Origin: Candidatus Bathyarchaeota archaeon
Lineage (GTDB): Archaea; Thermoproteota; Bathyarchaeia; TCS64
Direction of reading: 5' to 3'
DNA: 64,000 nt
Assembly: GCA_016783455.1 (NCBI GenBank)
Contig: JADHWN010000005.1
Coordinates: 1-64,000 of the forward strand
This document shows positions 18,349 through 50,187 of this stretch, one piece after another. Made by a program: the position numbers and the translations under genes. The stretch's first letter is position 1. Each line of letters starts with the position of its first letter. The notes below the pieces were generated by a model. It saw only the letters and a program-made list of their open reading frames with translations, searched no databases and was not told the origin of the DNA.

Positions 18349-18615
18349 GAAGCCGTTCCCTAACCTATATCAATAACTCAGTTTTTTCACCACTATCAGT
18401 TATGTAGATTACTGCTACATACAAATCGACATATCCTCTCCACCCGCATGGGAAACCAAGTAAAACAAGAGTGGACAACCTCGCGGAGGCCACACAAGGG
18501 GCACAAGGGGCCATGGCGCCATGAGCACCTCCAACGGAGCGGCTCAGCAGACCCCGAATGACCCTGATAGACATCGGCACCGGAGGTAGAGCCGTCCATA
18601 TCATAGGTGGTAAAG
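18349..18615. other. intergenic leader of the pilus operon
   Basis: This region contains no supported gene. It has an AT-rich part at about 18365-18425 and a GGTGGT ribosome-binding site at 18606 for the first pilin-like gene, so it probably holds the operon promoter. Confidence 0.4.
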
Positions 18616-19904: not shown

Positions 19905-19907
19905 AAG

Positions 19908-21491: not shown

Positions 21492-21502
21492 GAGGGTGAA
21501 AC

Positions 21503-22999: not shown

Positions 23000-25069
23000 T
23001 TGCCCACTGCCTCCATAGACTTCACCCTATCAGCATCGGCAATGATACTGCTGGTCATGGGGGCCATATTCGGCGTCAACATGGTGGCGGAGCCCTACTT
23101 GGAGAGCGAGACCTTCGACGAGGGACGATACAACCAGATAGCCAGACACATCCTGTTGTCGGAGGGTGAACCCGCTGACTGGGGTGTCGATGGCAACCTC
23201 ACATACTTCGGCCTCGCATCCACAGGAGGCGCTTATGAGCTTGACATCGACAAGGTGACCCGCTTAAACTCCTTGAACTCCTACTCCCTCGACTACAGGA
23301 GCATCTGGCAGGCTCTGGGCATCGAGGACGTATCATTCAGGATTGAGATGGAGCCCATTTTCGACACGACCCTAAACCTCGACGCATCGCAGTCCCAGGG
23401 GGGTGAGACCACATATAACTTCTCGGCGTCCACAGAACGGGATGGATATCCCCTCTCCACTCAGCTTAGCTACTACGTCATCTTCGGAAACACGACGTAC
23501 ACCGCCTCAGGAACCACTGATAGCACAGGCGACGGGACCGTGCAGTTCACGCTCCCCGATAGCGTCGAGGGAACGGCGCTTCTCGTCGGCTTCGCCAAGG
23601 AAGACGAGGGGGTGATCAGCTACAGCGTTCTCCCGTTCCCCCACATCAACGGTAGCGCTCACAGCAGTGGCGCATTCGCTCGCTTGAACCCCAACGATTA
23701 CTCACTGGATGTGGATCTGTACGAGAATAACTCGATAATGAACGCCGCATACCTCTCCCACGAGTACAGCTTCAACGATCCAGGCTGGCTCTATGGATGG
23801 GGCCAGAGAGTCCCAATAACGCTTGATCACGGAGACGTAGACAGCGAGCTGACGGATTTCCCTGTCCTCATCTACATCAGCAACTCGTCTGGAAGAAATG
23901 ATGACAACGTGTCTTTCATCTTCGATGAAATTGACGATTCAATTAGGAAGAAGATCGCCGTCACGACGGGCGACGGGGCCTCGCAGTGCTACGTCGAGAT
24001 AGAGGCATGGGACTCCACGAACGAGGAGGCCTGGCTCTGGGTGAGGGTTCCCACCGTCTCGAACGCCACGGACACAAAGCTGTACCTCTACTATGACGTT
24101 GGGCATGCCGACAACTCGGACTACGTGGGTGACGTAGGAGATGTCCCGGCTATGAGCGTGTGGGATGACGAATATGTCGGTGTCTGGCACATGTCCGAGA
24201 ATCCTGGGGGTGCCCCCCCGCAGATGACGAACAGCAGGTCCAGCGTAAACCATGGGACAAGCCATGGCTTCATGTCGAGCAGCGATCAGGTGAGAGGCGT
24301 GGTGGACGGCTCCCTGGCCCTCGACGGCCTCAACGACTATCTGGACTTCGGAAACGATGTCTCCCTCGACATCACTGGCGGTATCACAATCGAGGCCTGG
24401 CTCACGGTCGTAGACTATTCGGGGACCCCGGACGTCCTGACGAAGGGGAGCTACGATGTATCCTACTCCATGTGGATTCGGGCCGATGGAACCGTGAGGT
24501 TCGCATTAAACGACGACCGGTTGACGAGTAACACCTCCCTGGTCGCAGGGACGCTCTATCATATAGCGGCGACTAGGAGCGGTAGCACGCGTAAAATATT
24601 CGTCAATGGTACAGAGGACATCTCAGACTCCTACAGCACCGCGATAGGCACGACGGCGGGTCTCTTGACTTTCTCCACGGGGGGCTTTCCCTATGAGGGG
24701 CAGGTCGATGAGCTGCGGCTCTCGGCCAGTGGGAGGAGTGATGCGTGGGTCAAGGTGACCTATGAGAGTGGCGTAGACGACCTGGTGGATTTCGGGGGCG
24801 TCGAGACCCGTGAAGCCCAGGACAGTATAAACTACACGATCCCTCGCTTCCTAGATGGGAGCCCAAGGGTCCTCGTCGTCACCGGGCAGAACTCGACTCA
24901 ATATTGGGCGGAGTGGGTGGCTTACCCTCAGATACCCCTCGAGATAGGTATGGACATCGGAGCCGAGTACGTCGTCTCTGATGTTTACAGTGTGTCGTAC
25001 ATCGTTGAGGTTGAGGGGGCTCTATACAGGTTCAAAATGATGTTCAGGAGGCCACATCGATATGAATAG
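23000..25069 (+). CDS. large surface protein with DUF2341 and LamG-like domains
   Basis: This 689-residue secreted protein has an N-terminal hydrophobic segment (about residues 8-26), a beta-rich part and a DUF2341-type region (about 265-395; TDFPVLIYISNSSGRNDD, WLWVRVPTVS). A concanavalin/LamG-like domain follows (about 395-600; VWHMSENPGG, LDGLNDYLDFGN, ITIEAWLTV, VDELRLSASGRSD). DUF2341/LamG pairs occur in adhesins and glycan-binding surface proteins. It starts at TTG right after the platform gene stop and overlaps the next gene by eight bases. It is a close paralogue of 25474-27276. It is probably displayed on, or exported with, the pilus. Confidence 0.85.
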   Translation: MPTASIDFTLSASAMILLVMGAIFGVNMVAEPYLESETFDEGRYNQIARHILLSEGEPADWGVDGNLTYFGLASTGGAYELDIDKVTRLNSLNSYSLDYRSIWQALGIEDVSFRIEMEPIFDTTLNLDASQSQGGETTYNFSASTERDGYPLSTQLSYYVIFGNTTYTASGTTDSTGDGTVQFTLPDSVEGTALLVGFAKEDEGVISYSVLPFPHINGSAHSSGAFARLNPNDYSLDVDLYENNSIMNAAYLSHEYSFNDPGWLYGWGQRVPITLDHGDVDSELTDFPVLIYISNSSGRNDDNVSFIFDEIDDSIRKKIAVTTGDGASQCYVEIEAWDSTNEEAWLWVRVPTVSNATDTKLYLYYDVGHADNSDYVGDVGDVPAMSVWDDEYVGVWHMSENPGGAPPQMTNSRSSVNHGTSHGFMSSSDQVRGVVDGSLALDGLNDYLDFGNDVSLDITGGITIEAWLTVVDYSGTPDVLTKGSYDVSYSMWIRADGTVRFALNDDRLTSNTSLVAGTLYHIAATRSGSTRKIFVNGTEDISDSYSTAIGTTAGLLTFSTGGFPYEGQVDELRLSASGRSDAWVKVTYESGVDDLVDFGGVETREAQDSINYTIPRFLDGSPRVLVVTGQNSTQYWAEWVAYPQIPLEIGMDIGAEYVVSDVYSVSYIVEVEGALYRFKMMFRRPHRYE

Positions 25070-25472
25070 GCGCGGTGTGGTCCACACCCTGGACACGATC
25101 CTAGCGGCCGCGATCATATCCACGGTCCTCTTCTACGCCTCCCAGGTTCCTCTGGAGCTGGATACATCCAGCGAGAGGCCCCTTGACGTCTGGGGGATGC
25201 AGGCCCTTGTAGGGATCGATAGAAACGGGACCCTTGGACGGCTTGTGGACTCGGAGAGCTGGCAGGACCTCGAGGAGCTGCTGAGGGTCGTCCTCCCCTC
25301 AGGCGTCTCCTTTAACGTGACCGTATACGATGAGCAGGGGGCAGTCGTGAACGACTGCTACATCTCCAATGGAGGCCTACTAGGGCGCACGGTTGAGTCC
25401 GTCGACTACCTGGTGGTCGTCCCATCCGAAGAATGCCCGATGTACCGGTTGAGGCTGCAGTTGGGGGGATGA
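25062..25472 (+). CDS. small pilin-like membrane protein
   Basis: This 136-residue protein begins MNRRGVVHTLDTILAAAIIS. The basic start, a Gly and a hydrophobic helix (about 9-26) form a pilin-like N-terminus, followed by a small beta-rich outer domain with a FNVT sequon and two Cys residues (DCYI, ECPMYR). It lies between the two LamG paralogues and overlaps the first. A minor pilin or tip-protein carrier is a reasonable guess. Confidence 0.65.
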   Translation: MNRRGVVHTLDTILAAAIISTVLFYASQVPLELDTSSERPLDVWGMQALVGIDRNGTLGRLVDSESWQDLEELLRVVLPSGVSFNVTVYDEQGAVVNDCYISNGGLLGRTVESVDYLVVVPSEECPMYRLRLQLGG

Positions 25473-25473
25473 C

Positions 25474-27276
25474 ATGGAAGTGAGGTCGCGCAGGAAGGGG
25501 CAGGTCCTCGTCATCGCGGCCCTAGCGATAGCCCTGTCCATCCTCGCGGTCCAGGTATACCTGTATGACCTCAGTGAGACCTCGATCAGCTCTAACTTTG
25601 ACAGCTTGAGCGACTACATCCTGAGCATTGAGCAGGGATCCAGCCATGTGGTCGAGACATCACTCGTCGACGGCGGGGGCTGGCTTCAAGGTTGGAGCAG
25701 ACGTGTGAAGCTTGACCTAGACTCGAATGATATCGACGAGAACCTCACGGACTTCCCAGTTCTCATCTATCTGAGCAGCTCCTCAGGCCGCAATAACGAC
25801 AACCTGTCCTTTGTGTTCGACGAGATACAGTCCGATTCAGGCCGGAAGAAGATAGCCGTCACTACGAGCGACGGCTTGACCCAGTGCTACGCAGAGATTG
25901 AGAAGTGGAATGCCACGAGCGAGGAGGCCTGGATATGGGTCCGGGTCCCATCGGTCTCAGACTCATCGGACACGGAGTTGTTTCTCTACTTCGACAGCGA
26001 GCAAGAGGAGAACTCGGATTTCATCGGAGACGTCGGCGACTCCGCTTCCATGAGCGTCTGGGATGACGACTACGTCGGCGTCTGGCACCTGTCCGAGAAT
26101 CCGGGGGGAGCCCCCCCTCAGATGATTAATAGCAAGTCCGATGGTAGCCATGGGACCAGCCACGGCTTCATGTCGAGCGATGATCAGGTGAGAGGGGTGG
26201 TGGACGGCTCACTGGAGCTAGATGGTTTCACCGACTACGTTGACTTCGGGAGCGATACCTCCCTTGACCTCACGGGGAACATTACCATAGAGGCATGGGT
26301 CAGACCGGATGACTTTGCCGGACCCCCAGATCTACTGACAAAGGGGGACTACGATGAGGCCTATTCCGTATGGCTCAGAACCTCAGGTGAAGTAAGATTC
26401 GGCTTAAACAACAATCCACTGACGAGCAACGCTACCCTCGTCGCTGGCACAAGATATCATGTCGTAGCTACAAGGAGCGGTACAACGCGTAAGATATTCA
26501 TTAATGGCACCGAGGACATATCAGACACCTACGGTTTTTCCATAGGCACCACGTTCACAGATCTGACGCTCTCCTCAAGCAGTTACCCACTGGAGGGCAT
26601 GGTTGATGAGATCAGGCTCTCGAGCAGCGGCAGGAGCGATGCCTGGATTAGAGCGTCATTCGAGAGTGAGAGAGATTCCTTGGTCGACTTCGAGGGCGAG
26701 GAGACGGTCGAGGCTTATTACAGTGAGGAGGCAGAGGAAAATCTGGCCTCATACCTGGTTCGCTGGGAGTCATTCGTGGGCGGGGACTACGCCTATGGGT
26801 TCTGCTACCTCAACTCCACCCCTGCTTCACAGGCTCCTTACTCAGATGGGATATGGATAGACTGGGGTGAAGATGGTGCTGGTGTCACCGGGGCATGTAG
26901 CGACTACACGTTCAATATATCGGGGAGGGGGGCGGAGGCCGATCTTTCATTCACGGTCAACATGACTACGAGGGTTCAGCTATCTGGCAGCTATCAGGAT
27001 ATGGGTGGGGACAGCAAGGCGGTCACGGTCACCATGCAGCTCATAAAGGATGATTCTCCGGCCCTCTACGGGGATGTCACTCCTGAGGTTATGACCTCTG
27101 CTGGATGGGCGGATATGACTGCTATTGGTGACTATTCGGAGGAGGACCACGGGAACGGGACCTACACATACACCTTCACAGCAGACATCCCAGGTAGCGA
27201 CGTCCCTGTACGCTTCATGGTCCACGATAAGAGGGGGATCTACGTGATGGCAGAGGTGACATTGAACGAGGGGTGA
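25474..27276 (+). CDS. surface protein with DUF2341 and LamG-like domains (paralogue)
   Basis: This 600-residue protein has an N-terminal anchor (RRKGQVLVIAALAIALSILA, residues 6-25), the DUF2341-like part (about 70-200) and the LamG-like part (about 200-410). It shares long near-identical phrases with the protein at 23000-25069, such as YVGVWH.SENPGGAPPQM and HGTSHGFMSS.DQVRGVVDGSL. A further C-terminal beta region with FNISG, NMTT and NGTYTYTF sequons is not shared. It ends the surface-protein part of the operon, directly before the peptidase gene. Confidence 0.85.
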   Translation: MEVRSRRKGQVLVIAALAIALSILAVQVYLYDLSETSISSNFDSLSDYILSIEQGSSHVVETSLVDGGGWLQGWSRRVKLDLDSNDIDENLTDFPVLIYLSSSSGRNNDNLSFVFDEIQSDSGRKKIAVTTSDGLTQCYAEIEKWNATSEEAWIWVRVPSVSDSSDTELFLYFDSEQEENSDFIGDVGDSASMSVWDDDYVGVWHLSENPGGAPPQMINSKSDGSHGTSHGFMSSDDQVRGVVDGSLELDGFTDYVDFGSDTSLDLTGNITIEAWVRPDDFAGPPDLLTKGDYDEAYSVWLRTSGEVRFGLNNNPLTSNATLVAGTRYHVVATRSGTTRKIFINGTEDISDTYGFSIGTTFTDLTLSSSSYPLEGMVDEIRLSSSGRSDAWIRASFESERDSLVDFEGEETVEAYYSEEAEENLASYLVRWESFVGGDYAYGFCYLNSTPASQAPYSDGIWIDWGEDGAGVTGACSDYTFNISGRGAEADLSFTVNMTTRVQLSGSYQDMGGDSKAVTVTMQLIKDDSPALYGDVTPEVMTSAGWADMTAIGDYSEEDHGNGTYTYTFTADIPGSDVPVRFMVHDKRGIYVMAEVTLNEG

Positions 27277-27297
27277 TGATAACCCCCTTAAATGTAG

Positions 27298-28101
27298 ATG
27301 ATGAGTAACGAAAGAGAGGTACTCTCCCTGGATCCCATTACCTTTACCAGAATTCTACTGAGCCTCGTGATGCTAGGCTACACCTCCTGGGTCGACATGA
27401 AGACCCGCGAGATATACGACTTGATCTGGGTGATCTTTGGGGCATTGGGTCTCATAATAAACGTGTACGAAGTCTACACGGGCACTCTGCCATTCTGGGG
27501 CTTAGGTATATCCATAGTGTTCTCAGCTATCCTGAGTCTTGTCCTCGGATATATGGGGCTCTTCGGGGGGGCAGATGTCTTCGCGTTCATAGCCCTGGCC
27601 GTTCTCAACCCCTTTCAGCCCAGGGGTGTGAATCCCTCATTGGGCTTCGTATCCATAATCTATCCTCTCTCCCTCTTCTCCAACTCGGCTCTTGCCGGGG
27701 TCTCCTTTGCGATATTTCTCCTATTGAGGAACCTCTCCCTTTCTTTTGGGGGGAGGACGCTCTTCAGCAGCTATGGTTCGAGCCCCCTGTGGAGGAAGCT
27801 AGTCCTGATGGCCACGGGCATGAGAGTCGACATAGGGAAGGTTCGTGGTCCGCCATTCCAGTATCCCCTCGAGATGCCCTCAGAAGATGGTCTGTCTGAG
27901 AGGAAGCTCATCGTGATGCCCGATATACAGGACGACGAGGGAGCAGAGGAGATATTCAGAAGGCTGAAGAAGCAGGGCGTGGGGGAGGTCTGGGTCTCCC
28001 AGACTCTTCCATTCCTCCTATTCATCTTAATCGGCTATATTGTAACACTGGTAATAGGTGATATCGCACTCTACGCGTTGATCGGGTTACTATCCCGTTG
28101 A
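27298..28101 (+). CDS. prepilin peptidase (A24/FlaK-like aspartic protease)
   Basis: This 267-residue membrane protein has about six helices. The catalytic Asp pair is visible as WVDMKTREI after the first helix and LFGGADVFAF after the fourth; the latter is a GGAD version of the family's GxGD motif. It would remove the basic leader from the operon's pilin-like proteins. A cytoplasmic loop (about 160-235) precedes the last helices. As the last gene of the cluster it completes a self-contained pilus system. Confidence 0.85.
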   Translation: MMSNEREVLSLDPITFTRILLSLVMLGYTSWVDMKTREIYDLIWVIFGALGLIINVYEVYTGTLPFWGLGISIVFSAILSLVLGYMGLFGGADVFAFIALAVLNPFQPRGVNPSLGFVSIIYPLSLFSNSALAGVSFAIFLLLRNLSLSFGGRTLFSSYGSSPLWRKLVLMATGMRVDIGKVRGPPFQYPLEMPSEDGLSERKLIVMPDIQDDEGAEEIFRRLKKQGVGEVWVSQTLPFLLFILIGYIVTLVIGDIALYALIGLLSR

Positions 28102-28222
28102 TGCCTTTTAGAAAGTGTGTAGCGTAGAGAACTCACAAACTCTCATTAGAACTCCGGATTGATTTGAGGCTAGACTGGAACCCATGGGTCCAGGTTACCA
28201 TAGCACTAGGTGAGAGTAGAAA

Positions 28223-28789
28223 TTGCCAGGTAAGCTCGTAGCCGAGATAGTAACGCTGCGCTCCCTCCAGACACTCGAACAGCAGATCGAGGCGGATATT
28301 GCCGCGTATTCTTTCCAGAAGGAGGACTACAGCGAACGCCTAGGTAACTTCCTGAGGGACGCGGAGGAGAAGTACGGGGACGAGGACTGGTTCAAGGAGT
28401 TCTCGCTTGAAAAAATAAGCGGGGATAAGCCGAAGAAGGACGACTCAAAAAAGAAGTCTAAAAAGAAAAAGAAGCGGAAGAAAGGCGATTCGGACAGCTG
28501 GGTGCCTTTCAAGAGCCTTGAGCTTTCATCCAGCGTGCAAGGAGAGGCTGAGATAATGTTCGAGACCCTTCAGGCTATCACCGAGAAGCTGGAGGCACTC
28601 GAGGAGTCAAAGGAGTCTATCAATGAGCTCAGAAACGTTGGCCTCGGTAACGAAGTGGTCTACATCTGCTATGTCAAAGATGGTGTCATCAGCAAGATTG
28701 TCCTGAAATCCGTGGACACTGACGAAGTATCGAAGTTTACGTTCAACATGGGCTTCTCGAAGTCCCACATCTTAGAACAAAATCTCTAG
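28223..28789 (+). CDS. hypothetical charged protein with poly-lysine linker
   Basis: This 188-residue protein has a helical N-terminal part (1-65), a very basic low-complexity linker (about 70-95, with KKKSKKKKKRKKG) and a C-terminal alpha/beta part ending SKSHILEQNL. It starts at TTG 28223 after GGTGAG. The basic linker could bind nucleic acid or acidic lipid. It converges on the vWA gene. The acidic protein at 31854 is a possible charge-complementary partner by location; I recognise no family. Confidence 0.55.
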   Translation: MPGKLVAEIVTLRSLQTLEQQIEADIAAYSFQKEDYSERLGNFLRDAEEKYGDEDWFKEFSLEKISGDKPKKDDSKKKSKKKKKRKKGDSDSWVPFKSLELSSSVQGEAEIMFETLQAITEKLEALEESKESINELRNVGLGNEVVYICYVKDGVISKIVLKSVDTDEVSKFTFNMGFSKSHILEQNL

Positions 28790-28805
28790 AACCTTTAGTC
28801 GTATA

Positions 28806-30503
28806 TTATCCGAGCTCGCTCATGGAGGCTCGCAGGAATATCCTCGAGATGTTGTTTATCAGGTCCTTCTGTGAATAGACTCCTGCACTGTACCTGAAGT
28901 GCTCACCCATCCTCTCTGTGTCTACGCCGATACCTATCAGGATCATCCCGCCTCCCATGTAAGTTAAGTTATTCTCCTCCAAGGTTTCGTAAATGCCCTC
29001 GTAGCCATAGGGGTAGCCGTCCGAGATGACCAAGATGATCCTCTGCTCCTCAGCCTTGCCTTTCAAAAACTCAGCGGCGGCCATCAGTGCATCCGGCATG
29101 TAGGTCGTACCATCGAAGGGGACACCTCCGATCCGAGCCCGAACGCTCTTCGAGAAGGCCTCCGAGCCATCTTTTAAGACGTAGAGCCTATCGCTGAAGC
29201 CGTACATTGCACATGACGCGTTCTCGGTCACGAACGTGGCCACCGCGTCCGCTACGCAGATCGCCCTAGCCCTGTTCTCGCGTTCAGCAGTCCCCATACT
29301 CCTGCTCACGTCTATGAGGACGACGATGGCGAAGCTCTGCTTCATGAGCTCGTCTCTCTGGAAGACATCGCTCCTATCGCTCTTGCTGGCTACAACCTGG
29401 ACTGCGTCGGCTAGGTCGAGGACACCGAACTTCTTTCTGATGTCCTCGAACTCTAAATTCGATGCCTGCATGATATTGTTGAGGAGGCGCCTCGATGAGC
29501 CCCCGACAATATCTTTGGCCCTAAGGTACTCATGGTAGTCCTCAGGTGGCATCTCTATCGATCTGAACCGAGTATCAGGGAGGCCTTCCTTTATCCTTGC
29601 CAGTATCTTTTCTTCTTTTTCTTTCTCAATCTTGCTGTTGCTGAAAACCTGCACTCCAGCGACTTCCTCTGACCTTATCCAGGTTGATGACATGTCGCTA
29701 TCTTCTGGAAGCGGCTGTCCTAGAGCCCGCATGGCATCCTTGAAGAAGGTTTCAACTTCGGTATCATCAGGAGTCGACGTTCTTGAGTAGACGCTACTTG
29801 TAGAAGCATTCTCAGTGTAAGGAAAGGCCGGGAGTTCAACGAACGGCCCTTTGTCAGCGAGCCTGTCGTATATCCATTCAGCTGTCTCCTTCAGCCTTTC
29901 AAAGCCTATCTCGTCTTCACCTAGCGAAGACGAAATATATGATTTCAAATCGCGTAGCCTTTCTGCGATGTCATCGACAAGTTCAGCCTCAACTTTATCG
30001 AGCTCATCGAGCGGCTTTCCCCCGAAAACTTTGGCCAGTATCGCGGTCATGATCCGAGTTGATGGGAGGTATATCCTCTTCAAAGGTTTAAACGAGGAGG
30101 TCGCCAAAGCGTTGGCGTAGGCGAGGTCAGCAAGCCTATCCGGCTGCTCAGCCCCGATCTTGACCGTGGCGTAGACATCCTTGATAAGCGTCTCGACGAA
30201 CTCTGCTTGAATGGATTGCGCCTCAAGGAGTCTAGGTATCTCCGTCACAGTGTGAGCGGTGATGTGGGTCACAGTAGCTCTGAAAAGCCTTGAGGTTCTT
30301 CTCTTGCCGTCATCATTTTTCGGGAATGTGTAGCCGAGGAACTTTATGGACTCCTCGGTGATTCTAGGTTCAGGCAACCTGAGTTTAGGTAGATCTCCTT
30401 CATAATCTAGAGTCGGATAGGTCAGGGTTCTGTCTAAGAGGATCTTTATCCCGAATTTATCTTTCAGGAGGGAGTGTTTCTCAGCGTAGTCCCTGAACCC
30501 CAT
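28806..30503 (-). CDS. von Willebrand factor A domain protein
   Basis: This 565-residue cytoplasmic protein has a C-terminal vWA domain (about residues 390-560). Its metal-ion-dependent adhesion site is intact: Asp398-x-Ser400-x-Ser402 (VLIDVSRSMG), a Thr in GGVPFDGTTYMPDAL and an Asp in LVISDGYPYG. The N-terminal 380 residues are mostly helical. It lies 20 bases downstream of the MoxR-type ATPase gene in the same operon. MoxR/vWA pairs act as chaperone-like systems that activate or remodel protein complexes; the client here is unknown. Confidence 0.9.
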   Translation of the reverse strand: MGFRDYAEKHSLLKDKFGIKILLDRTLTYPTLDYEGDLPKLRLPEPRITEESIKFLGYTFPKNDDGKRRTSRLFRATVTHITAHTVTEIPRLLEAQSIQAEFVETLIKDVYATVKIGAEQPDRLADLAYANALATSSFKPLKRIYLPSTRIMTAILAKVFGGKPLDELDKVEAELVDDIAERLRDLKSYISSSLGEDEIGFERLKETAEWIYDRLADKGPFVELPAFPYTENASTSSVYSRTSTPDDTEVETFFKDAMRALGQPLPEDSDMSSTWIRSEEVAGVQVFSNSKIEKEKEEKILARIKEGLPDTRFRSIEMPPEDYHEYLRAKDIVGGSSRRLLNNIMQASNLEFEDIRKKFGVLDLADAVQVVASKSDRSDVFQRDELMKQSFAIVVLIDVSRSMGTAERENRARAICVADAVATFVTENASCAMYGFSDRLYVLKDGSEAFSKSVRARIGGVPFDGTTYMPDALMAAAEFLKGKAEEQRIILVISDGYPYGYEGIYETLEENNLTYMGGGMILIGIGVDTERMGEHFRYSAGVYSQKDLINNISRIFLRASMSELG

Positions 30504-30522
30504 GACCCATCAACCCAGGCTT

Positions 30523-31554
30523 CTATTCGAACACGTTCACGATGATCCTTCTCACTTCTTCCTGGACCTCGTGGTTGTCGCTGGTCAACGCGATCAGGGT
30601 CTCCTCGGCAGCCTTAATCGGCTCGACGCCATCGTTGCAGAGGACCGCCCAGTTGATGAGGTCTCCAGGGCTTGGACCATAGGGGAGGTCGCCTTCCTGG
30701 TACTGCTTCCGCATCTCCGCACCCACTCTTAGGATATTGTAGGCGATCTCATCGCTCGCGCCGGAACGCTTCACGATGAGGTCCTTCTCCCTGTCAGAGA
30801 GGTTCTCACCGATACTCTGGTACGTGAAGTTGAGCCAGACCGACATCCTCCTCCTGAAGGCAGCGTTCAGCTTCTTTGTTCCCGAGAACTCAGCCGAGAA
30901 TGGGTTCATGGCGAGGACGCAGTATCCGAACTTGTGGCGGGGCACGATCTCGTTGTCCTTCTCCGTGATGACGAGGTGGCCACGGGTGTCCAGGATCGGG
31001 TTGAGCCTCGTTGCGACGTCCTGCTTCATCATGTTGGCCTCGTCGAGGTAGAGGATGCCCCCATGCCTGAGCCAGAGGGTTACCTGACCGTCGATCCAGT
31101 TCTCCTTGCCAAGACCGACGAAGCGCCCGATTAGGTCGTAGCTGCTCGTCTGCAGTCCACAGTTGACCTCCCATACCGGGAGTCCCGTGAGCTCCGCTAC
31201 GAGGTAGATGATGTGTGTCTTCCCCGTCCCGCTGGGCCCGATGAGGGCACACTGCTTGAAGTGGTACATGGCTCTGACTATACGTTCGACGTACTGCTGG
31301 CCGTCGTCGATGTACTCAGGCACTCCGCTGGGGAGCATGTTCGCGATGTCATCGAAATAGTAGCCCGGATGCAGGTCGTACTTCTGGATATCGTACTTGT
31401 AGTACAGTGGAGAGGTCGTTATCACCCTCTGCTTGGAGAGGTGGACGGTGATCTTACCGTTCCTCCCCTTGGTGGACATGACCTCCTGGACCTTACTGAT
31501 GCCATGCTCCCTTCTACCCTGACGGCCGTACCCAAGAGCCTTCTGATCAGCCAT
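30523..31554 (-). CDS. MoxR-type AAA+ ATPase
   Basis: This protein of about 343 residues has Walker A at roughly 106-113 (GPSGTGKT), Walker B in GGILYLDEANMM, a sensor (YCVLAMNPFS) and an arginine-finger region (AAFRRRMSVWLNF). This is the MoxR/CbbQ-like type. An ATG at 31554 follows a GAGG-containing ribosome-binding site; a TTG three codons earlier (31563) is also possible. It is the first gene of a two-gene operon with the vWA protein and is divergent from an acidic protein gene. Confidence 0.9.
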   Translation of the reverse strand: MADQKALGYGRQGRREHGISKVQEVMSTKGRNGKITVHLSKQRVITTSPLYYKYDIQKYDLHPGYYFDDIANMLPSGVPEYIDDGQQYVERIVRAMYHFKQCALIGPSGTGKTHIIYLVAELTGLPVWEVNCGLQTSSYDLIGRFVGLGKENWIDGQVTLWLRHGGILYLDEANMMKQDVATRLNPILDTRGHLVITEKDNEIVPRHKFGYCVLAMNPFSAEFSGTKKLNAAFRRRMSVWLNFTYQSIGENLSDREKDLIVKRSGASDEIAYNILRVGAEMRKQYQEGDLPYGPSPGDLINWAVLCNDGVEPIKAAEETLIALTSDNHEVQEEVRRIIVNVFE

Positions 31555-31563
31555 AACCTGCAA

Positions 31564-42107: not shown

Positions 42108-43085
42108 TTGAAGAGACAAGGGATTTTTTTCCTCTTAGTGATATTATGCCTAGTTTCCGCCACAGTGCCCGCTGAGGGACAGGAGGAGAGATGGCTCGTC
42201 TCGTACAGCGTGGTGGACATGACTACGAAGCAGCTCGTCTTCGAGCAGGACTACGAGACCGGGAGGACCATCTCGAACGCCCCAATGTTCGCTGGGGCTG
42301 AGTACAACATCACGGTGACCCTCGACATCGGCCTATCCGCTCCCTACGCCAATCTCAGTCTATGGGTGAACCTGAACCACGCCGACTCCATAGATCGGTA
42401 CTGGGAGATCCACACTGTGAGCCTCAACCTCACCGATGACTACAACCCGAACATTCCCACATTCAACTTCTGGCAGATAGAAGGGAGGTATGTCATCTCC
42501 ACGTTCGGGAGGGTCCCAAGCGACCTGACAATGGTCGACCTCGGCAACGTGGTGCTGCATTTCCCCATCAATCACGTAACATTGCAGTTGAGAGGTCCCG
42601 ACAACAGCCTTCTTGACGAGGTCAAGCTCACCATCATCGACTCGGAGATAGACAGCTACAACTTCTTCCTAGGTGAGCGGGAGGCCGACCTTCTGGAGTA
42701 CGAGGAGGTTGGCGTAGACCCTGCATTCACAGATGTCTTCGAGAACTACATCAGCCTGGCCAAGTCCCAGGCTGAGAGGGGTTTCATCCAGACGGCGAAG
42801 ACGATCCTTGAGCCACTGGAGATCGAGATACCCCCCATACAGACGGGGCCCACCCTGGCGGACCAGTACTTCCTCCCTGCAGTGGGAGGCTTGGGGCTGC
42901 TCGTCGTTCTACTCGGCGTCCTCTTCTTCAAGGCGAGGGGGAGGATCGCGTTCACTTCCATGGTGATAGAGGACCAGATCCGGGAGCTGGAGGGCCTCAC
43001 GATGAGGGCAGCCAGGACCGATAAGAACCTGGGGGAAAGGCTCCAGGAGATAAATAAGAGGTTGAAGGATATGGAGGGAATATAG
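42108..43085 (+). CDS. single-pass membrane protein of tubulin cluster
   Basis: This 325-residue protein starts at TTG after GGAGGGGG. It has a signal peptide (about 1-23), a beta-rich external domain to about residue 255 with NITVT and NLS sequons, one membrane helix (about 260-280, LPAVGGLGLLVVLLGVLFF) and a cytoplasmic coiled-coil tail (about 285-325). It ends exactly one base before the tubulin-like gene. It could link an outside domain to the cytoplasmic filament system. No family is recognised. Confidence 0.7.
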   Translation: MKRQGIFFLLVILCLVSATVPAEGQEERWLVSYSVVDMTTKQLVFEQDYETGRTISNAPMFAGAEYNITVTLDIGLSAPYANLSLWVNLNHADSIDRYWEIHTVSLNLTDDYNPNIPTFNFWQIEGRYVISTFGRVPSDLTMVDLGNVVLHFPINHVTLQLRGPDNSLLDEVKLTIIDSEIDSYNFFLGEREADLLEYEEVGVDPAFTDVFENYISLAKSQAERGFIQTAKTILEPLEIEIPPIQTGPTLADQYFLPAVGGLGLLVVLLGVLFFKARGRIAFTSMVIEDQIRELEGLTMRAARTDKNLGERLQEINKRLKDMEGI

Positions 43086-45740
43086 ATGTCTGACATAGGA
43101 TACTCAGGTGTCATCCACCTCGTGGGCTTAGGTGGGGCGGGCACAAACATTGTCGAGTCTTTCCTGAAGAACGAGAAGACCATGGAGCTCCTCGAAAGCG
43201 GGGTGACGCGGCTCTCCCTCATGGCCCTGGACATCGCCGACCCAGATATCAAGAGCCTAGAGGAGGCACACAAGAAGGTTCTCGACGCGATGAAGAGGAA
43301 CGGGGTCCCCAGGGAGCGCCTCAGCCTCATCGCGAGGTCCATCAAGTTCCCGAGCGCCGAGGCGATGTTCGACTTCGTCCATCACAAGTTCAGCGAGCAC
43401 TTGGTCAACGAGGGGATCAGGGTCAAGGAGTACTACCCCTGGCTGCCCTCCACTGTGGCGATCCCCCCCCTGGCCGGAGGTGCGGGGCGGCGTAGGTCCC
43501 TCGCCAAGGCCATCTACAACCTTAACTACTACCAGCTGGGTATCATAAAGTCCCTCATCAACATGTACAAGGACCACGCCCTCTCGTCCATCAACGCCCC
43601 CATCATCCTCCTGCTCTTCGGATTGGGCGGAGGGACGGGGAGCGGGATCGTCTTCGACTTCGCCCGCCACCTCAGGAAGTCCGTGGGCTCAGGAGTGCCG
43701 ATCCTCGCACTGTGTGTGCTGCCCTGTGCGGGTGACGACCCACCGGCGAAGGGCTACTCGGCCTTCAACGCCATCAACGAGCTCACGGCTCTCCTCAACA
43801 GGGAGACCAACGAGAAGCTGGTGGAGAAGCTCGGCGAGGAGTACAGGAACCCCTTCAACTCCGTCCTCTTCCTTCCCCTGATGCCCGCATACTCCAAGAC
43901 CGGGAACATCATGCTCGCCCGGGACGAGATCGACCAGATGATCACGGAGATGATCTACGTCCTCATGGACTTCGACATGGCAGACCTCATGAGCGGCATA
44001 GGCACCGAGGTAGGCCTCCTCGACAACAGCATCCACACGCTGAGCATGGTGAAGGTCAACTACCCCGTCGACGCCTACGTCGACGCTTTCAAGTCCAAGC
44101 TGGAGGAGATGCAGCAGCTCTCCCAGATCCGGCGGGAGAAGCTCAACTTCCTGGAGATGATCAACAAGGTCCTCGGGGTGAAGTACGCGGAGGTCTCCAC
44201 CCTCTACAAGCAGTACCTCATCAGGACTAACAGCTATGTCGAGGACGAGTTCGAGGAGAAGCTGAGGAGCCTCATCTACGGGAGTCCCCGGTTCGACGAG
44301 GACTACAACCTCTACATCAGGGGCGTCCAGGACCAGATAAAGAGCTGGATAGATGACTCCATCCAGTTCATCTCCACGATCAAGGTCGTCGCCCAGGAGG
44401 GCACCATCGAGGACTCCATAATGAAGCTCACACTCCAGACTGACGAGTCCTCGAACCAGGACAGCCTGGAGGGTCTCATGAAGAACCTGATGAGGAACCA
44501 CTCCGAGTTCTCTGAGCTCAAGACAGCCCTCTTCGAGCGCCTGCAGCAGCTAGTACCCAGCTCACAGCTACTAAGCGTGAGGCAGAAGAAGCTCGTGGAG
44601 GACTTCATGACCCTCGCCGACGTCACGGAGAAGGTCCTCGACATCCTCAGGTTCTACAACGAGACGAGGCACCTCACCGACGCCATGATTCGGCGCTACG
44701 AGATCCTGCCCGAGGACGAGTTCCCGCCCATAAACTTCCAGGACTTCAAGGCCGAGCTGACGACGCTCTACCACCTACTCCAGCTCATGGTGAAGCACGC
44801 CTCCGACGAGGTGAAGATGATCGACGAGCACCTCACCTACCTCCAAGCCATCGTCGGCAAGTTCAGAGGCCGCAAGGAGACCATGGAGAACGAGCTCTAC
44901 AGGCTCGAGGAGAGGCAGAAGCGGAAGGAGTTCGACAAGCAGAAGTACGAGAAGGAGTCGGGGGGCTTCTTCAGGTTCGGGAAGAAGAGGTACGCCAAGG
45001 AGAAGCTCAACGAGGTGGAGAGGGAGCTCCGGGTGATAAACGAGGAGATGCTGACCACCAATGAAGAGATCGGGAAGACCGACGTCGTCACAGACCTCTA
45101 CAACGACCTCCTGAAGAACCTCGAGGTCACCTCGGACTACAGGAAGAAGCTGAACATCGTCCTCGACCTCAACAAGGAGTACCAGAGGCTGTTCTCAGAG
45201 ATCATCAAGCCCAAGAGGTTCTACGAGAGGACGACGGAGTTGACCCAGGACGAGCAGGTGAAGATCATCTACAAGATCCTCGCGGAGCAGGAGGAGGCCC
45301 TGAGCAGGGAGGGGATCCTCAGGGAGATCCTGGACGTAGAGCACTTCAAGGACTACATGAGGAGCGTCGTCAGGGTCTACCGCACACCCAACATCATGGG
45401 CCTCAAGTCCAGCTTCAGGTCCGACTACCTCTGGGTAACCGTGCAGACCCCCCCAGGACTCTGGGACTCCGACCTCACCCAGGAGCTCTACACAGCCTTG
45501 GCCGGATACGTAACGGGGGACGTCTCGAAGACGATCACCGTGAGGGAGGTCAACGCCAGGGACCCATGGGTGATAAGGGTCGTCGTCGTGGGAGGCAGGA
45601 GCCGCGTGGAGGACCTGGCGACCTTCGACGAGATGGAGCGTCTCAACAGGAAGGCCTCGGACTTCGAGAAGGGGCTCTCCAAGTCGTTCCTGATAGAGCA
45701 CAAGGCCTCACTGAAGGAGATCCTGAAGAAGGACTACTAG
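43086..45740 (+). CDS. tubulin/FtsZ-superfamily GTPase with long coiled-coil tail (Tubulin_2-like)
   Basis: This 884-residue protein has an N-terminal tubulin/FtsZ GTPase domain. The first nucleotide loop is LVGLGGAGTN (residues 12-21), the tubulin signature GGGTGSG is at 181-187 and a T7 synergy loop DFDMADL at 295-301 keeps the catalytic Asp residues. Sequence is far from FtsZ, CetZ and tubulin; it fits the Tubulin_2/FtsZ-like families linked to membrane remodelling. Residues about 330-790 are mostly helical with strong coiled coil (600-690, many Lys/Glu). The last 90 residues form an alpha/beta part (YLWVTVQTPPGLW, PWVIRVVVVGG) resembling the FtsZ C-terminal subdomain. It immediately follows a membrane-protein gene, with GGAGG before its ATG. 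Confidence 0.88.
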   Translation: MSDIGYSGVIHLVGLGGAGTNIVESFLKNEKTMELLESGVTRLSLMALDIADPDIKSLEEAHKKVLDAMKRNGVPRERLSLIARSIKFPSAEAMFDFVHHKFSEHLVNEGIRVKEYYPWLPSTVAIPPLAGGAGRRRSLAKAIYNLNYYQLGIIKSLINMYKDHALSSINAPIILLLFGLGGGTGSGIVFDFARHLRKSVGSGVPILALCVLPCAGDDPPAKGYSAFNAINELTALLNRETNEKLVEKLGEEYRNPFNSVLFLPLMPAYSKTGNIMLARDEIDQMITEMIYVLMDFDMADLMSGIGTEVGLLDNSIHTLSMVKVNYPVDAYVDAFKSKLEEMQQLSQIRREKLNFLEMINKVLGVKYAEVSTLYKQYLIRTNSYVEDEFEEKLRSLIYGSPRFDEDYNLYIRGVQDQIKSWIDDSIQFISTIKVVAQEGTIEDSIMKLTLQTDESSNQDSLEGLMKNLMRNHSEFSELKTALFERLQQLVPSSQLLSVRQKKLVEDFMTLADVTEKVLDILRFYNETRHLTDAMIRRYEILPEDEFPPINFQDFKAELTTLYHLLQLMVKHASDEVKMIDEHLTYLQAIVGKFRGRKETMENELYRLEERQKRKEFDKQKYEKESGGFFRFGKKRYAKEKLNEVERELRVINEEMLTTNEEIGKTDVVTDLYNDLLKNLEVTSDYRKKLNIVLDLNKEYQRLFSEIIKPKRFYERTTELTQDEQVKIIYKILAEQEEALSREGILREILDVEHFKDYMRSVVRVYRTPNIMGLKSSFRSDYLWVTVQTPPGLWDSDLTQELYTALAGYVTGDVSKTITVREVNARDPWVIRVVVVGGRSRVEDLATFDEMERLNRKASDFEKGLSKSFLIEHKASLKEILKKDY

Positions 45741-46888
45741 AACTCCTCTATCTTCCTCTGCGTGTTATCAAGCAGGGTCTTCCTTATCTTCCCCCAGATC
45801 TCCTTCTCGTAGAGCTCGTGCTCGACGATGAGGGTGCTGAACCTGGAGATACGCTTATCCATCGTCTCGAAGAGGTGCCCCGTCTCGAAGCCCCCAACGA
45901 GGACGACGACGTCGATCCTGTCGCCGTGCTCCTCAACGTAGACTGGCTCGCAGATCAACGGGGCGTTGAGGTCAGCCACATCCTTGAGCCAGCTATTGAC
46001 CTCAAGCTCGATGTAGCCCTTGGGGAGCTGATACTGGAGCCTGAGGGGAGCCCTAACTAGGACGTAGACGAACTGGGCGGTGGAGAGGTCGAAGTCCAGG
46101 AGGGGCTGCTCAAGGGTTATGTCAAGGATGTTCCTCAGGCTCTCGTAGATTTCGAGGCTAGCACCCGCCGCCATGAGGGCGGTGAACATGTCCACCTTGA
46201 ACGAGTTGGACTGCTTCACTAGGTCCCGTATCAGGCCCCTCTTGTCAAGGAACAGCTCGACGAGGAAGTCTACAATATCCCCATTGGAGAGTCGCCCCCC
46301 TCCCCTGTTGACCCCTATGAACTGGCTCAGCCGGGTGTTGTCGAGGAGGATGATGGGTCCGGTCTCCGCGCCGAGGAGAAGCCCCAGGGATGAGAAGGCG
46401 TTGAAGAGGGCGTCCGAGCTGTAGTCCATGGACGGGAAGACGGCTAGAAATACGGCGTTCTTCTTGTCTCTCACCAGCTTCGAGTTGAGTGTGGGCAGGA
46501 CACCTGCCGTGACGCCGTCCGAGAGGGAGCCCGATATCACGATCTCGTCGTGGTAGTCGAAGATCGTCTCATCGAGAGACTTTGTAAATTCCCCGTTTCC
46601 ATCGATGTAGGAGTGGATGTCGAACCAGTAGTGGGGCTCGAAGACCGTGTCAAACATGAGGGTTGAGGCCGGATCAGGGGTTATCTCAACGGTTTTAAGG
46701 TCTAACTCCTTCCTATGGAGTATGTGGAGGAGTGTGGGCGTGTCAATACCATTGAAGCGCTTGGGGTTCCTCAACGCTTTAAAGGCGAACTGACCCACAG
46801 TTAATGCCAACTGGCTTGGGAGAACTGGGTTGATGCGGTCGATATGGGTCCTTATCTGCTTCAGGACGTCGAATCCGGACTCGGTCAT
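45737..46888 (-). CDS. degenerate tubulin/FtsZ-like protein (predicted, GTP loop lost)
   Basis: This 383-residue protein appears to follow the FtsZ fold order but with lost nucleotide motifs. LALTVGQFAFKAL stands where the first glycine loop would be. GSLSDGVTAGVLPTLNSKL replaces the tubulin signature. Next comes FLAVFPS...FNAFSSLGLLL and IILLDNTRL, as in FtsZ's strand plus NDRL loop. FKVDMFTALMAAG is placed like T7, and a C-terminal half ends in DRIDVVVLVGGF. It may be a catalytically dead partner of the GTPase it converges on, overlapping by four bases. The ATG at 46888 is chosen because the upstream extension overlaps the divergent gene. Fold assignment is inference. Confidence 0.6.
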   Translation of the reverse strand: MTESGFDVLKQIRTHIDRINPVLPSQLALTVGQFAFKALRNPKRFNGIDTPTLLHILHRKELDLKTVEITPDPASTLMFDTVFEPHYWFDIHSYIDGNGEFTKSLDETIFDYHDEIVISGSLSDGVTAGVLPTLNSKLVRDKKNAVFLAVFPSMDYSSDALFNAFSSLGLLLGAETGPIILLDNTRLSQFIGVNRGGGRLSNGDIVDFLVELFLDKRGLIRDLVKQSNSFKVDMFTALMAAGASLEIYESLRNILDITLEQPLLDFDLSTAQFVYVLVRAPLRLQYQLPKGYIELEVNSWLKDVADLNAPLICEPVYVEEHGDRIDVVVLVGGFETGHLFETMDKRISRFSTLIVEHELYEKEIWGKIRKTLLDNTQRKIEEF

Positions 46889-46939
46889 CTGGGGATAAGA
46901 AAAGGATTGGGAACTTAATATAAAAGGTGCGTTTCGGTC
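46889..46939. promoter_or_regulatory. 51-base divergent promoter of tubulin cluster
   Basis: The two divergent genes are only 51 bases apart, sharing an AT-rich core at about 46913-46926 (CTTAATATAAAAGG) that can read as a TATA element in both directions. Transcripts would have almost no leader. Close sharing suggests matched expression of the degenerate tubulin and the polytopic membrane protein. Confidence 0.5.
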
Positions 46940-49270
46940 ATGAGCATCACTTTCCTGAACGATGAGAGCTTCACGGACCAGACCGGTCGCGCGATAACCA
47001 TCCTCGTGACAGCTATTAGCATGGCCCTCTCCTTCACCCTGATACCCCTCCTCCCGAAGCCGTTGCCTGTTATCGTCGCCCTCCTCGTCGCCTACCTTGT
47101 CTATAGGGACCCGCCGATGGGGGCCTTCGTGGGTAGCATGATCATAGCCTTTGGGGTGTTCTACCACCTCTCAAGGATCGGGTTCTTCCTCCTCTTCCCC
47201 CCGCCGTGGGTCCGCATGCTCGTCATGGTGGTGCTCCTCCTCCCCTTCTTTCTCGTCTCCACGCAGCTGTTCACCAACATCGCCATCATCTCAATGGACA
47301 TAGGCATACTCGCCGTCTCCCTCCTATTCTTCAAGTCGACGTACTACCTCGCAATTCCCATCATCCTCGTCTTCGCCACGATCTACCGGAAGCGGGGTCT
47401 CATCGTCACCTTCTCCTACTACCTCTTCATCTCGCTCCCCCTCCAGGTCATGCAGTACCTGAAGACGTTTCAGGTGGGGATGGTACCGCCCCTCTACACC
47501 CCTCTCGACGTCATATTTACGGACATCCAGCAGGCTATGGAGCAGGTCAGCCTCGAGGAGATCCAGAAGATCCTTGGTGTGATAATGAGGCAGATACTGA
47601 TGCTCAACGGGAACGGGGGGGATCTCCAGCCCGCCCTCAGTAGCTACGTCAACTCGTTCCCGGGGATGATCTTCTTCATACTTATCATCTCGGCTCTCAT
47701 CTCCGTAGCTGCCCTTTTAACGCTGAAGCTCCCGGAGCCCCTGAAGAGGAGCAGGCTCCCGAGGAGGTATATGGACACGCTTATCTACGTCATACCAGTG
47801 GGTGTCGCCATCTTCACGAACATGGTCTTCTTCGTCCTCCTTGACATCCTCCAGGGACCCCTGGCGTTCCAGGCGAGCGTGGATCCTACGATACTCATGC
47901 TCTCAACGAGCTTCACCCTCTTCCTCTCGGCCCCCGTCTCCCTGTCAAAGTACATCGTCGACCTGAGGGATGTATTGGCAGATCGGAAGGCTGAGCTGAA
48001 GAACAGGGCCGAGTCCCTCCTCGAGGAGGTGGACCACTACATATGGCTGATGAACCTGCTGGGAGACCCCATTCCCCAGGGCTTCATCTCACTCCACACC
48101 CGGATGCTCATAGTCGCCGACGAGCTGAAGGACACGATCGCCCTCTCCTCCGATGGCCCCTCGACCCTCAAGGAGGTGGACCCCCTCATGAGAAGGGTGT
48201 TCACCCATCTCCAGGATGAGGTCTCCAACTTCAGGTGGCAGCTCGACATCGCCCTTGACGACTATTACATCAAGATCAAGTTCGAGTTCCTCGAGTCTGC
48301 CAGGGAGATACGTGAGCTAGGACTGGAGGTGGAGCTACCCGAGATACGTGATCCTCCCAAGGACGCACCTCTGGAGGAGAAGGTCGAGAGCATACTGTGG
48401 GTGATGGACGCCGGGGGCAATCTGGTGGACAAGCTCATCTCCACATCGGACAAGATCTACGAGATCATCTGCTCCCTCTTTGAGCCCTCCCTCCCGGGGG
48501 TGAGCCCCATCATCCAGATCTCCAAGGAGAAGCAGGAGAGCGACGAGCCCTGGGTCATCATAGAGGCCATCCTCGCCTCCCTCAGGAACTGGGAGAAGCA
48601 GTACTCCGCTGAGATAATGCGGTCCACGAAGCCCATACAGGACTCCGTGGAAGCCGTCATCGAGCTCAGGAAGAGGGAGGGAGCCCTCCTGCCCATCCTC
48701 GGCGACAGGTTCACCCTCATCAGCGACCTGGCTGGGAAGCTCGAGGTCAGGGATTTCGGTAGAGAGGACGACCTGAAGGTGCTCAGGGTCATCCTCATCA
48801 GGGACACCATCTTCTCCACCGTGGACGTCGTGGCCAGGGTTGTGGGGGTTCTCTACGATCACCTGAGGGAGCTGGAGGCCGACATCGACTCCCTGATGCC
48901 CATGGAGGACTATGAGTGGAACAAGAACCTCACCCTCCTCGACAGGATGAACACGAGCCTCGGGGTCATAAACCACTACGAGAGCCACGAGATCAACGAG
49001 ATCATCAGCCACCTCTACAGGGTGCTCAGCTACATAGACGAGGCTGTGGACACGGTGCAGTACTACAACGAGAGGAAGGAGCTCCTGCTCAACTACCGCA
49101 TTCTGGAGAAGAAGATTGGGCGCATACTCGCGGATAACGATCAGGTGAGCCTGGATGACCTCGGCGTCTCGGAGAAGTTCGGCAGGGAGTACCTGAAGCT
49201 CTACCTCCGAGGGCATTACACTGAGATCCCCCTGGAAGAGGTCGGGAGCTCCCTGAGGAGGGTTAGCTAG
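46940..49270 (+). CDS. polytopic membrane protein with long cytoplasmic helical tail
   Basis: This 776-residue protein has about 10 membrane helices within residues 15-330, e.g. LLVAYLVYRDPPMGAFVGSM and VLLLPFFLVSTQLF. A tail of about 440 residues, largely helical and charged (about 330-776), follows. I recognise no family. The tail length and coiled-coil character resemble those of the tubulin-like protein, and the gene overlaps the PH-like gene by one base. It could be the membrane receptor for the filament. Confidence 0.75.
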   Translation: MSITFLNDESFTDQTGRAITILVTAISMALSFTLIPLLPKPLPVIVALLVAYLVYRDPPMGAFVGSMIIAFGVFYHLSRIGFFLLFPPPWVRMLVMVVLLLPFFLVSTQLFTNIAIISMDIGILAVSLLFFKSTYYLAIPIILVFATIYRKRGLIVTFSYYLFISLPLQVMQYLKTFQVGMVPPLYTPLDVIFTDIQQAMEQVSLEEIQKILGVIMRQILMLNGNGGDLQPALSSYVNSFPGMIFFILIISALISVAALLTLKLPEPLKRSRLPRRYMDTLIYVIPVGVAIFTNMVFFVLLDILQGPLAFQASVDPTILMLSTSFTLFLSAPVSLSKYIVDLRDVLADRKAELKNRAESLLEEVDHYIWLMNLLGDPIPQGFISLHTRMLIVADELKDTIALSSDGPSTLKEVDPLMRRVFTHLQDEVSNFRWQLDIALDDYYIKIKFEFLESAREIRELGLEVELPEIRDPPKDAPLEEKVESILWVMDAGGNLVDKLISTSDKIYEIICSLFEPSLPGVSPIIQISKEKQESDEPWVIIEAILASLRNWEKQYSAEIMRSTKPIQDSVEAVIELRKREGALLPILGDRFTLISDLAGKLEVRDFGREDDLKVLRVILIRDTIFSTVDVVARVVGVLYDHLRELEADIDSLMPMEDYEWNKNLTLLDRMNTSLGVINHYESHEINEIISHLYRVLSYIDEAVDTVQYYNERKELLLNYRILEKKIGRILADNDQVSLDDLGVSEKFGREYLKLYLRGHYTEIPLEEVGSSLRRVS

Positions 49271-50187
49271 TGGACAAGATCAAGGGTAAGCTGAGGAGCG
49301 GTCAACGGGCTTACATTGAGCTCAAGGACGGCTCCGTCAACGTCTCCATGGAGCGGGGGCTCATCATGAAGAGCCTCGTGGTCCACAGGGAGCTCCCGCT
49401 ATCCGAGATCACACACGTGACGCTTGAGAAGGACAGCTCCCCCCGGAGTAGGAATCATCACCTGACCCTTGTGTACGGTGAGGGTGAGGAGGAGGTCTTC
49501 TCCTCGACCGAGGACGAGCCTCTTGAAGCCCTCCGGTCCCAGATAGCGGCTGACCTGGAGCGGCGGAGGGCTGAGCGTGAGAGGGAGGAGGCCGAGAGGA
49601 GGCGGGTCTGGGAGGCACATGTCCACCAGATATCCCTCATGCTGGACCTCATGGAGGAGGTCTTCCTCATGCTAGAGGGGCTGCAGGGATGGGTCGAGTG
49701 GACGGGTATCGGGGGCCACCTTGTACAGCTTGAGCACGTCATCGGGGAGATGAGGGAGATAGAGGTCCTGGCGCCTCTGAAGTACGACCTCCAGGGCCTC
49801 AATACAGCCGTGAGGAGGAGGCTCCCCGGGGCGATCAGGGAGGAGTGCTTCGCGGTCCTCACAGTCCTCAGGCAGGACATAGAGCGGCTCTCCAAGTCCG
49901 ATGAGTCCTCCATGGGCTTCGACCTAAGGCTCTACGAGCGGTTCGTGGGCGCCTACTTCCTCCTCTGGGATATCAACCTCTCGGAGTTCCTGGGAGAGCC
50001 AGCTGAGAGGGCGGAGGTCATCGAGTTGAACACCTTCCTTGAGAGGCTGAGCAGCCTAGAGGTCAACGGGGAGGCAGAGGTGCCTCGATTCCCCGATCTA
50101 ACCGAGATCGATGTCCTCGGCCCTAAGATCAAAGATATCCGGGGTGCAATCCAGTTCCATCTACACGCCCTCTTAGACGGAATATGA
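49270..50187 (+). CDS. PH-like N-terminal domain, coiled-coil protein
   Basis: This 305-residue protein starts at a GTG overlapping the previous stop. Residues about 1-90 form a beta-rich module (QRAYIELKDGSVNVSMERG, LPLSEITHVTLEKD, HLTLVYGEGEEEVF) typical of bacterial/archaeal PH-like domains that bind lipid or protein. A charged helix (about 92-118, RRRAEREREEAERRR) and a helical C-terminal domain follow. No signal peptide or membrane helix is present. It is the last gene of the tubulin cluster and a likely peripheral adaptor at the membrane; that role is inference. Confidence 0.7.
   Translation: MDKIKGKLRSGQRAYIELKDGSVNVSMERGLIMKSLVVHRELPLSEITHVTLEKDSSPRSRNHHLTLVYGEGEEEVFSSTEDEPLEALRSQIAADLERRRAEREREEAERRRVWEAHVHQISLMLDLMEEVFLMLEGLQGWVEWTGIGGHLVQLEHVIGEMREIEVLAPLKYDLQGLNTAVRRRLPGAIREECFAVLTVLRQDIERLSKSDESSMGFDLRLYERFVGAYFLLWDINLSEFLGEPAERAEVIELNTFLERLSSLEVNGEAEVPRFPDLTEIDVLGPKIKDIRGAIQFHLHALLDGI

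Follow-up and report, generated by a model that had tools for sequence, protein, structure and literature searches.

The question raised by this locus is what a protein predicted to resemble tubulin does among genes for membrane proteins, and whether it serves cell division or some other task. The stretch of DNA analyzed (the window, 64,000 nucleotides) belongs to a 2.19-Mb, 75% complete genome of a Candidatus Bathyarchaeota archaeon, and it contains a set of five open reading frames, here named A to E, all of which were found where the original prediction had put them (Table 1). For gene C, the mechanically called reading frame extends to 47167, into D, and we placed the start at the ATG at 46888 because the resulting protein agrees with the C proteins of relatives. 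The intergenic region left between the divergent C and D genes might be a promoter shared by both, as its AT-rich stretch would allow. The cluster is flanked upstream by genes for ProRS and iPGM and downstream by genes for an MFS transporter and a solute-binding protein (Pfam). An assembly artifact was ruled out, since the cluster was found again in MAGs of independent projects.

Table 1. Genes and sequence features of the cluster, with positions in the window
Feature	Residues	Position	Strand	Basis or remark
Gene A	325 aa	42108-43085	+	
A, conserved cytoplasmic tail		42933-43082	+	Candidate docking site for B
Gene B	884 aa	43086-45740	+	Start immediately after the stop codon of A
B, T1 loop GGAGTN	16-21	43131-43148	+	Sequence; kept among relatives
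B, T4 signature GGGTGSG	181-187	43626-43646	+	GGG(T/S)GSG in all relatives
B, T7 loop DFDMADL	295-301	43968-43988	+	D297 and D300 are the counterparts of the FtsZ T7 aspartates
B, helical arm	328-771 (~440 residues)	44067-45398	+	AF2 element order; colinear arm-less homologs
B, S8-H10-S9-S10	776-840	45411-45605	+	AF2; homology to bacterial C-terminus
B, C-terminal motif S-[FYL]-L-x-E-[HQW]	863-873	45672-45704	+	Conserved; candidate docking peptide
Gene C	383 aa	45737-46888	-	4-nt tail-to-tail overlap with the end of B
C, lost T4 site, ISGSLSDGVTAG region	118-129	46502-46537	-	Alignment with FtsZ and relatives
C/D divergent intergenic region	51 nt	46889-46939	.	TATA-like AT-rich stretch at about 46916-46927 (sequence)
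Gene D	776 aa	46940-49270	+	
Gene E	305 aa	49270-50187	+	1-nt overlap with the stop codon of D

B is a member of the tubulin superfamily and belongs to its FtsZl1/Tubulin_2 branch. It matched the Pfam Tubulin_2 model at an E value of 7.7e-14 with 52.1 bits (curated cut-off 27) and the Pfam Tubulin model with 33.3 bits (curated cut-off 33), and because both matches pass their cut-offs, the motifs GGAGTN, GGGTGSG and DFDMADL, which the translation of B holds exactly at the residues first claimed, are not owed to chance. The T4 and T7 motifs were essentially invariant across 29-35 relatives, and residues G181-183, G185-187, D297 and D300 were invariant in 29 of them. The T7 aspartates of FtsZ and tubulin act across the subunit interface. 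With its GTP-binding and T7 residues intact, B is predicted from its sequence to be a GTPase. The further claim that it is not the FtsZ of cell division was borne out by a score of 15.3 bits with the TIGR00065 FtsZ equivalog model, far under the cut-off of 295.2; a match to FtsZ_C was absent from the Pfam search. B may be distinct from CetZ as well, as had been proposed; its best Pfam model is Tubulin_2. Near the end of the protein, S867, L869 and E871 were invariant in 29 relatives while the remaining tail diverges, and the motif that holds them is a candidate docking peptide.

Structure prediction found in B the tubulin fold that had been proposed; neither this check nor the comparison of genomes below, the two that could have overturned the original proposal, did so. 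With 11 sequences, the GTPase core of the AF2 model was poorly determined and Foldseek matched it to nothing at E<=0.001; with 29 sequences, the model reached a pLDDT of 83.4 and a pTM of 0.74, with residues 108-151 at low confidence. In Foldseek searches of the PDB, the best matches of B were TubZ, FtsZ and tubulin (E from 1.1e-4, probability 1.00), with 9-15% identity in the structural alignments. The modeled elements run in the order S1, H1, S2, H2, S3, S4, T4, H4, S5 and S6 (259-263), followed by H7 (275-294), T7, H8 (298-305), S7 (316-325) and the helical arm, beyond which lie a strand (782-788), a helix (795-808) and two further strands (817-823 and 829-839). The order of elements after H8 in FtsZ is S7-H9-S8-H10-S9-S10, and by comparison of S7-H9-S8 with the model, the arm therefore stands in the place of H9. 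As modeled, B has a complete two-domain tubulin fold, whose C-terminal half is assigned from the order of elements and from homology with arm-less relatives, not from Foldseek.

Rather than being an appended tail, the arm interrupts the tubulin C-terminal domain between S7 and S8, as is shown by arm-less bacterial homologs, which are colinear with B across the gap. A tblastn search with residues 1-330 of B retrieved proteins annotated as 'tubulin-like' from Rhodococcus and Agrobacterium plasmids (E to 1e-26), and bacterial Tubulin_2 proteins were about 30% identical to B over residues 10-295. Five such proteins, encoded at two loci, are 382-568 residues long and have no long arm. When the arm was deleted from B, the rest aligned with the arm-less bacterial proteins over 430 columns (hhalign probability 100, E 4.5e-54), and the C-terminal segment alone matched the bacterial C-terminus (hhalign probability 96, E 3.8e-9; hmmsearch iE 2.1e-11). 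The same segment gave no match to the FtsZ profile (E 0.59), and the Foldseek alignments, of about 350 columns, do not reach across the arm; because neither provides a bridge, the insertion is argued from the bacterial relatives and from the order of elements. Thus, the hundreds of residues of coiled coil that had been noted in B stand, and what had been missed is that they interrupt the C-terminal domain.

The second tubulin-like gene of the cluster differs from B in its motifs. C seems, from its profile matches, to be a diverged tubulin-superfamily protein that lacks the GTP-binding signature, that is, a pseudo-tubulin. The C profile aligned with that of FtsZ/CetZ over 250 columns (hhalign probability 96.1, E 3.1e-9), and the profiles of A, D and E, which served as negative controls, gave no match to it. 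Among all PDB sequences, the same C profile found CetZ (7.1e-6 and 8.4e-6) and the Asgard tubulin AtubB2 (5.9e-5), and the Pfam Tubulin model was matched by 14 of 26 C relatives (best 4.6e-5). When the C proteins that have diverged most, those of crenarchaea and Nitrososphaerales, were profiled clade by clade, no profile on its own had a significant FtsZ match. At the T4 position, SGSLSDGVTAG stands in the C protein of the window and a W-D-G-V/I-G-S form in that of most other Bathyarchaeia; GGGTGSG was absent from the motif columns of every C relative examined, and the DxxD of T7 is gone in C and in every relative examined. Therefore, sequence profiles uphold the original description of C as tubulin-fold-like, which had overlooked the loss of its nucleotide-binding motifs. 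In one group of Bathyarchaeia (L038, L042, L043 and L044), the C protein continues at its C-terminus for about 70-120 further residues, many of them P, E, K and R, and the C protein of the window lacks this extension.

The remaining three genes include two for membrane proteins. According to hydropathy and charge, A consists of a signal peptide (residues 1-24), an extracellular domain (25-245), one transmembrane segment (about 250-275) and a coiled-coil-like cytoplasmic tail of ~50 residues (276-325), and the predicted layout of signal peptide, membrane segment and cytoplasmic tail agrees with the hydropathy of its relatives, nearly all of which have an N-terminal hydrophobic segment and one further transmembrane segment. 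The tail is the most conserved region of A (mean pairwise identity 0.44 vs 0.28 in the ectodomain), D305 and L312 are invariant in 19 relatives, and we regard the tail as a candidate docking site for B. D has a polytopic membrane part (residues 1-345, 6-9 hydrophobic segments) followed by a helical tail of ~430 residues, as had been described and as hydropathy shows throughout 28 relatives. Searches against Pfam and PDB profiles assigned no family to A and no known family to D, for which they returned weak coiled-coil-type matches only. E, a fast-evolving protein, has an N-terminal part of about 100 residues and a helical remainder. It had been labeled PH-like, and it may have such a domain, but the label gains no support from Pfam and PDB profile searches, in which E had no match, PH-type included.

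The cluster had been expected to recur as a unit in other archaea, and a comparison of gene neighborhoods found A-B-C-D together in 28 genomes besides that of the window (iterated profiles, each genome counted once), in a search that stayed within the phylum and had euryarchaeal FtsZl1 loci outside its reach. The carriers are many Bathyarchaeia, Desulfurococcales/Pyrodictiaceae and other Thermoprotei. Most of them have the order A-B-C-D with C reversed, as in the window, and this is the order in Desulfurococcales/Pyrodictiaceae; the rest, namely other Thermoprotei and L030, have A-B-D-C in one direction. In a Nitrososphaerales genome (L059) and an unplaced archaeon (L058), A-B-D is followed by a C-like gene (weak match, probability 68). 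The full set A-B-C(reversed)-D-E was found in eight relatives from the family of the window's genome, and the flanking ProRS and iPGM genes are kept in relatives. E adjoins D in these eight close relatives and in one other Bathyarchaeia genome (L066), and genes of similar size occupy its place in four distant ones (L061, L062, L064 and L065); the E profile matched the crenarchaeal form weakly (probability 51, E 1.5e-4). The lowest identities among relatives were 31-33% for B and about 15% for C. Pairwise distances in the trees of A, B, C and D correlate at 0.89-0.97, and the trees have 12-18 of 21 splits in common, an agreement that is owed partly to common (vertical) descent. The distribution of the module is patchy: it is missing from a congeneric sister species, G002 (92% complete), and in another genome, G035, B occurs alone, without the other four genes. 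Among further B-type genes, one at L031:8008-10890 has none of the module partners and adjoins a Cdc6-like AAA gene, and its product has a zinc-ribbon end similar to that of a CetZ-like protein (L017:234-1496). In two MAGs, B is split into two reading frames (L029:690-2629 and L049:1394-3709).

As for cell division, canonical FtsZ is encoded twice in the window genome, and the module was found alongside FtsZ in G000, G005, G011 and G013. In six other genomes (G007, G012, G233, G255, G067 and G095), B was the sole match to the Tubulin model and ESCRT-III-like matches were present, the absences of FtsZ or of the module being soft because the genomes are MAGs; in G233, a second place matching the Tubulin model lies 3 kb from B, where C would lie. 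B was also the sole match in two crenarchaeal genomes (G348 and G349), and an ESCRT-III match was found in G349 only. Because FtsZ-bearing genomes carry the module and most FtsZ-less carriers have ESCRT-III-like genes, and because it is absent from close relatives such as G002, the module is unlikely to be the core division apparatus. That B and C are the sole tubulin-superfamily proteins found in several genomes is what would be expected if the module divided the cell or assisted in its division, and yet, given the two FtsZ genes of the window genome, the ESCRT-III-like genes in most FtsZ-less carriers and the close relatives without the module, we regard either role as very improbable.

We consider instead that the products of genes A to E form a GTP-driven machine, linked to the membrane, that belongs to the FtsZl1/Tubulin_2 branch of the tubulin superfamily, and we put the probability of this reading at about 0.5. 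In such a machine, B subunits carrying GTP would assemble head to tail at the cytoplasmic face of the membrane, and their arms would stick out like spokes. A point against such assemblies is that the arm could get in the way of lateral or longitudinal packing. C would bind B but not GTP, and might in this way cap, nucleate or space the assemblies, which the tails of A, D and perhaps E would tie to the membrane via the arm and the C-terminal peptide of B. The T7 aspartates of one subunit would set off hydrolysis in its neighbor, upon which the assemblies would come apart. The likeliest output would be local membrane shaping or the organization of an envelope complex, and not cytokinesis itself. 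The more specific picture of an active, arm-bearing B that is capped by or co-assembles with a dedicated pseudo-tubulin C and is coupled across the membrane via A and D, in archaea without FtsZ, is offered as a tentative one.

Bacterial gene neighborhoods are the best reason to keep a role without filaments in view, namely that B acts as a switch operated by GTP, or as an assembly factor, and together with C controls the maturation or insertion of an A-D envelope complex in a metallochaperone- or NorQ/NorD-like manner. The Tubulin_2 proteins of Rhodococcus and Agrobacterium plasmids are encoded as 2-3 genes beside CobW, CbtA/CbtB and CbbQ-type AAA plus VWA genes, and nickel transporter and amidase genes lie near the bacterial short forms. 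Because these relatives adjoin CobW, cobalt/nickel transport, AAA-VWA and amidase genes, there is a hint, by analogy, that some Tubulin_2 proteins serve enzyme maturation and not membranes. For the archaeal module, we find such a role possible but unlikely, since the T7 aspartates of B are invariant and no metal-enzyme gene adjoins the cluster in the window. The patchy distribution of the module, its membrane partners and its presence independent of the division system would also suit a cytoskeleton that acts like CetZ in cell shape or motility and is anchored at the cortex by A, D and E; this is quite unlikely in view of the place of B in the Tubulin_2 branch (Pfam), its large arm, which CetZ structures lack, and the absence of linked motility genes next to the cluster. 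Patchiness would be equally in line with an antiviral or other conflict system, which we hold to be highly improbable, as the housekeeping flanks (ProRS, iPGM) are kept in relatives. A defense system was rejected after PADLOC gave no match of note, and so was a viral origin, the module not being found on the viral contigs and phage records searched.

The preferred reading, a membrane-linked tubulin-superfamily machine, has its closest published counterpart in FtsZl1, a name that is scarce in the open literature searched. FtsZl1 was described as a protein whose N-terminus is like FtsZ and is followed by a coiled coil and a C-terminal domain of helices; T6-H7 was not identified in it, and its operons often include a vWA gene (the majority, so that vWA is a frequent but not a defining partner), kinases or a P-loop GTPase (PMC2875224); a 2023 analysis of the tubulin family left Tubulin_2 out as different in history (PMC9871819). 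B resembles FtsZl1 in its FtsZ-like N-terminal GTPase domain, extended coiled coil and further C-terminal domain (PMC2875224; Pfam PF13809), and the module resembles the published loci in occurring alongside canonical FtsZ and in having membrane-protein neighbors (PMC2875224). In contrast to the 2010 account, T6-H7-T7 and a tubulin-type C-terminal domain are identifiable in B, and unlike in FtsZl1 operons, the genes next to the window cluster include none for a vWA protein, a kinase or a second GTPase. The cluster also has the putative pseudo-tubulin C. The sole vWA match in the window genome lies 11-13 kb upstream, beside MoxR and a type IV pilus operon, and none was found near B in 10 other genomes searched. 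The claim that the cluster has its own partners therefore holds against the vWA, kinase and GTPase partners published for FtsZl1; gene A or D may, however, overlap with the A1-A2 partner families of FtsZl1 loci. Positions 18607-31563 of the window hold this pilus-like operon, which encodes large LamG-like secreted proteins, and after it, on the opposite strand, the MoxR (30523-31563) and vWA (28806-30503) genes.

Other relatives share parts of this design. The bacterial short-form Tubulin_2 proteins, such as that of R. jostii RHA1 pRHL2 (L142), are like B minus the arm, with which they are colinear over the 430 columns given above, and their loci hold several tubulin-like genes each, as B and C do. 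They differ in having no long arm and in their metal, amidase and AAA-VWA neighbors, and, unlike C, the tubulin-like genes of these loci have a complete or near-complete T4 motif. The Rhodococcus and Agrobacterium plasmid loci (L142:11857-15437 and L143:8854-16597) each carry 2-3 tubulin-like genes, which match Tubulin_2 or Tubulin, and a gene for a protein of ~100 residues; CbbQ-type AAA, VWA, CobW and CbtA/CbtB genes lie beside those of L143, and amidase genes near both loci. In some of the bacterial plasmid proteins, AGGTGSG or AGKTGSG replaces GGGTGSG. Other Thermoproteota (L078 and L079) encode proteins of about 1,020-1,050 residues that share the Tubulin_2 domain with B and resemble SSO1376 of the 2010 study (PMC2875224), but they have N-terminal transmembrane segments of their own, and none of A, C, D and E is found near their genes; each of these genes (L078:7552-10707 and L079:8307-11357) is followed by one for a protein of ~700-770 residues. 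The solved structures of TubZ, FtsZ and tubulin have the fold, nucleotide loops and T7 aspartates of B, without its inserted arm.

Taken together, the module provides the FtsZl1/Tubulin_2 branch, which was named in 2010, with a defined and recurring set of partners and adds a pseudo-tubulin to them, and B gives reason to expect that the tubulin fold is complete in that branch and is interrupted by an arm. Since the module occurs in archaea that apparently lack FtsZ, a role of the tubulin family outside division is directly testable there. Set beside the known systems, the module is real and represents a form of FtsZl1, apparently not described before, that has a partner set of its own.
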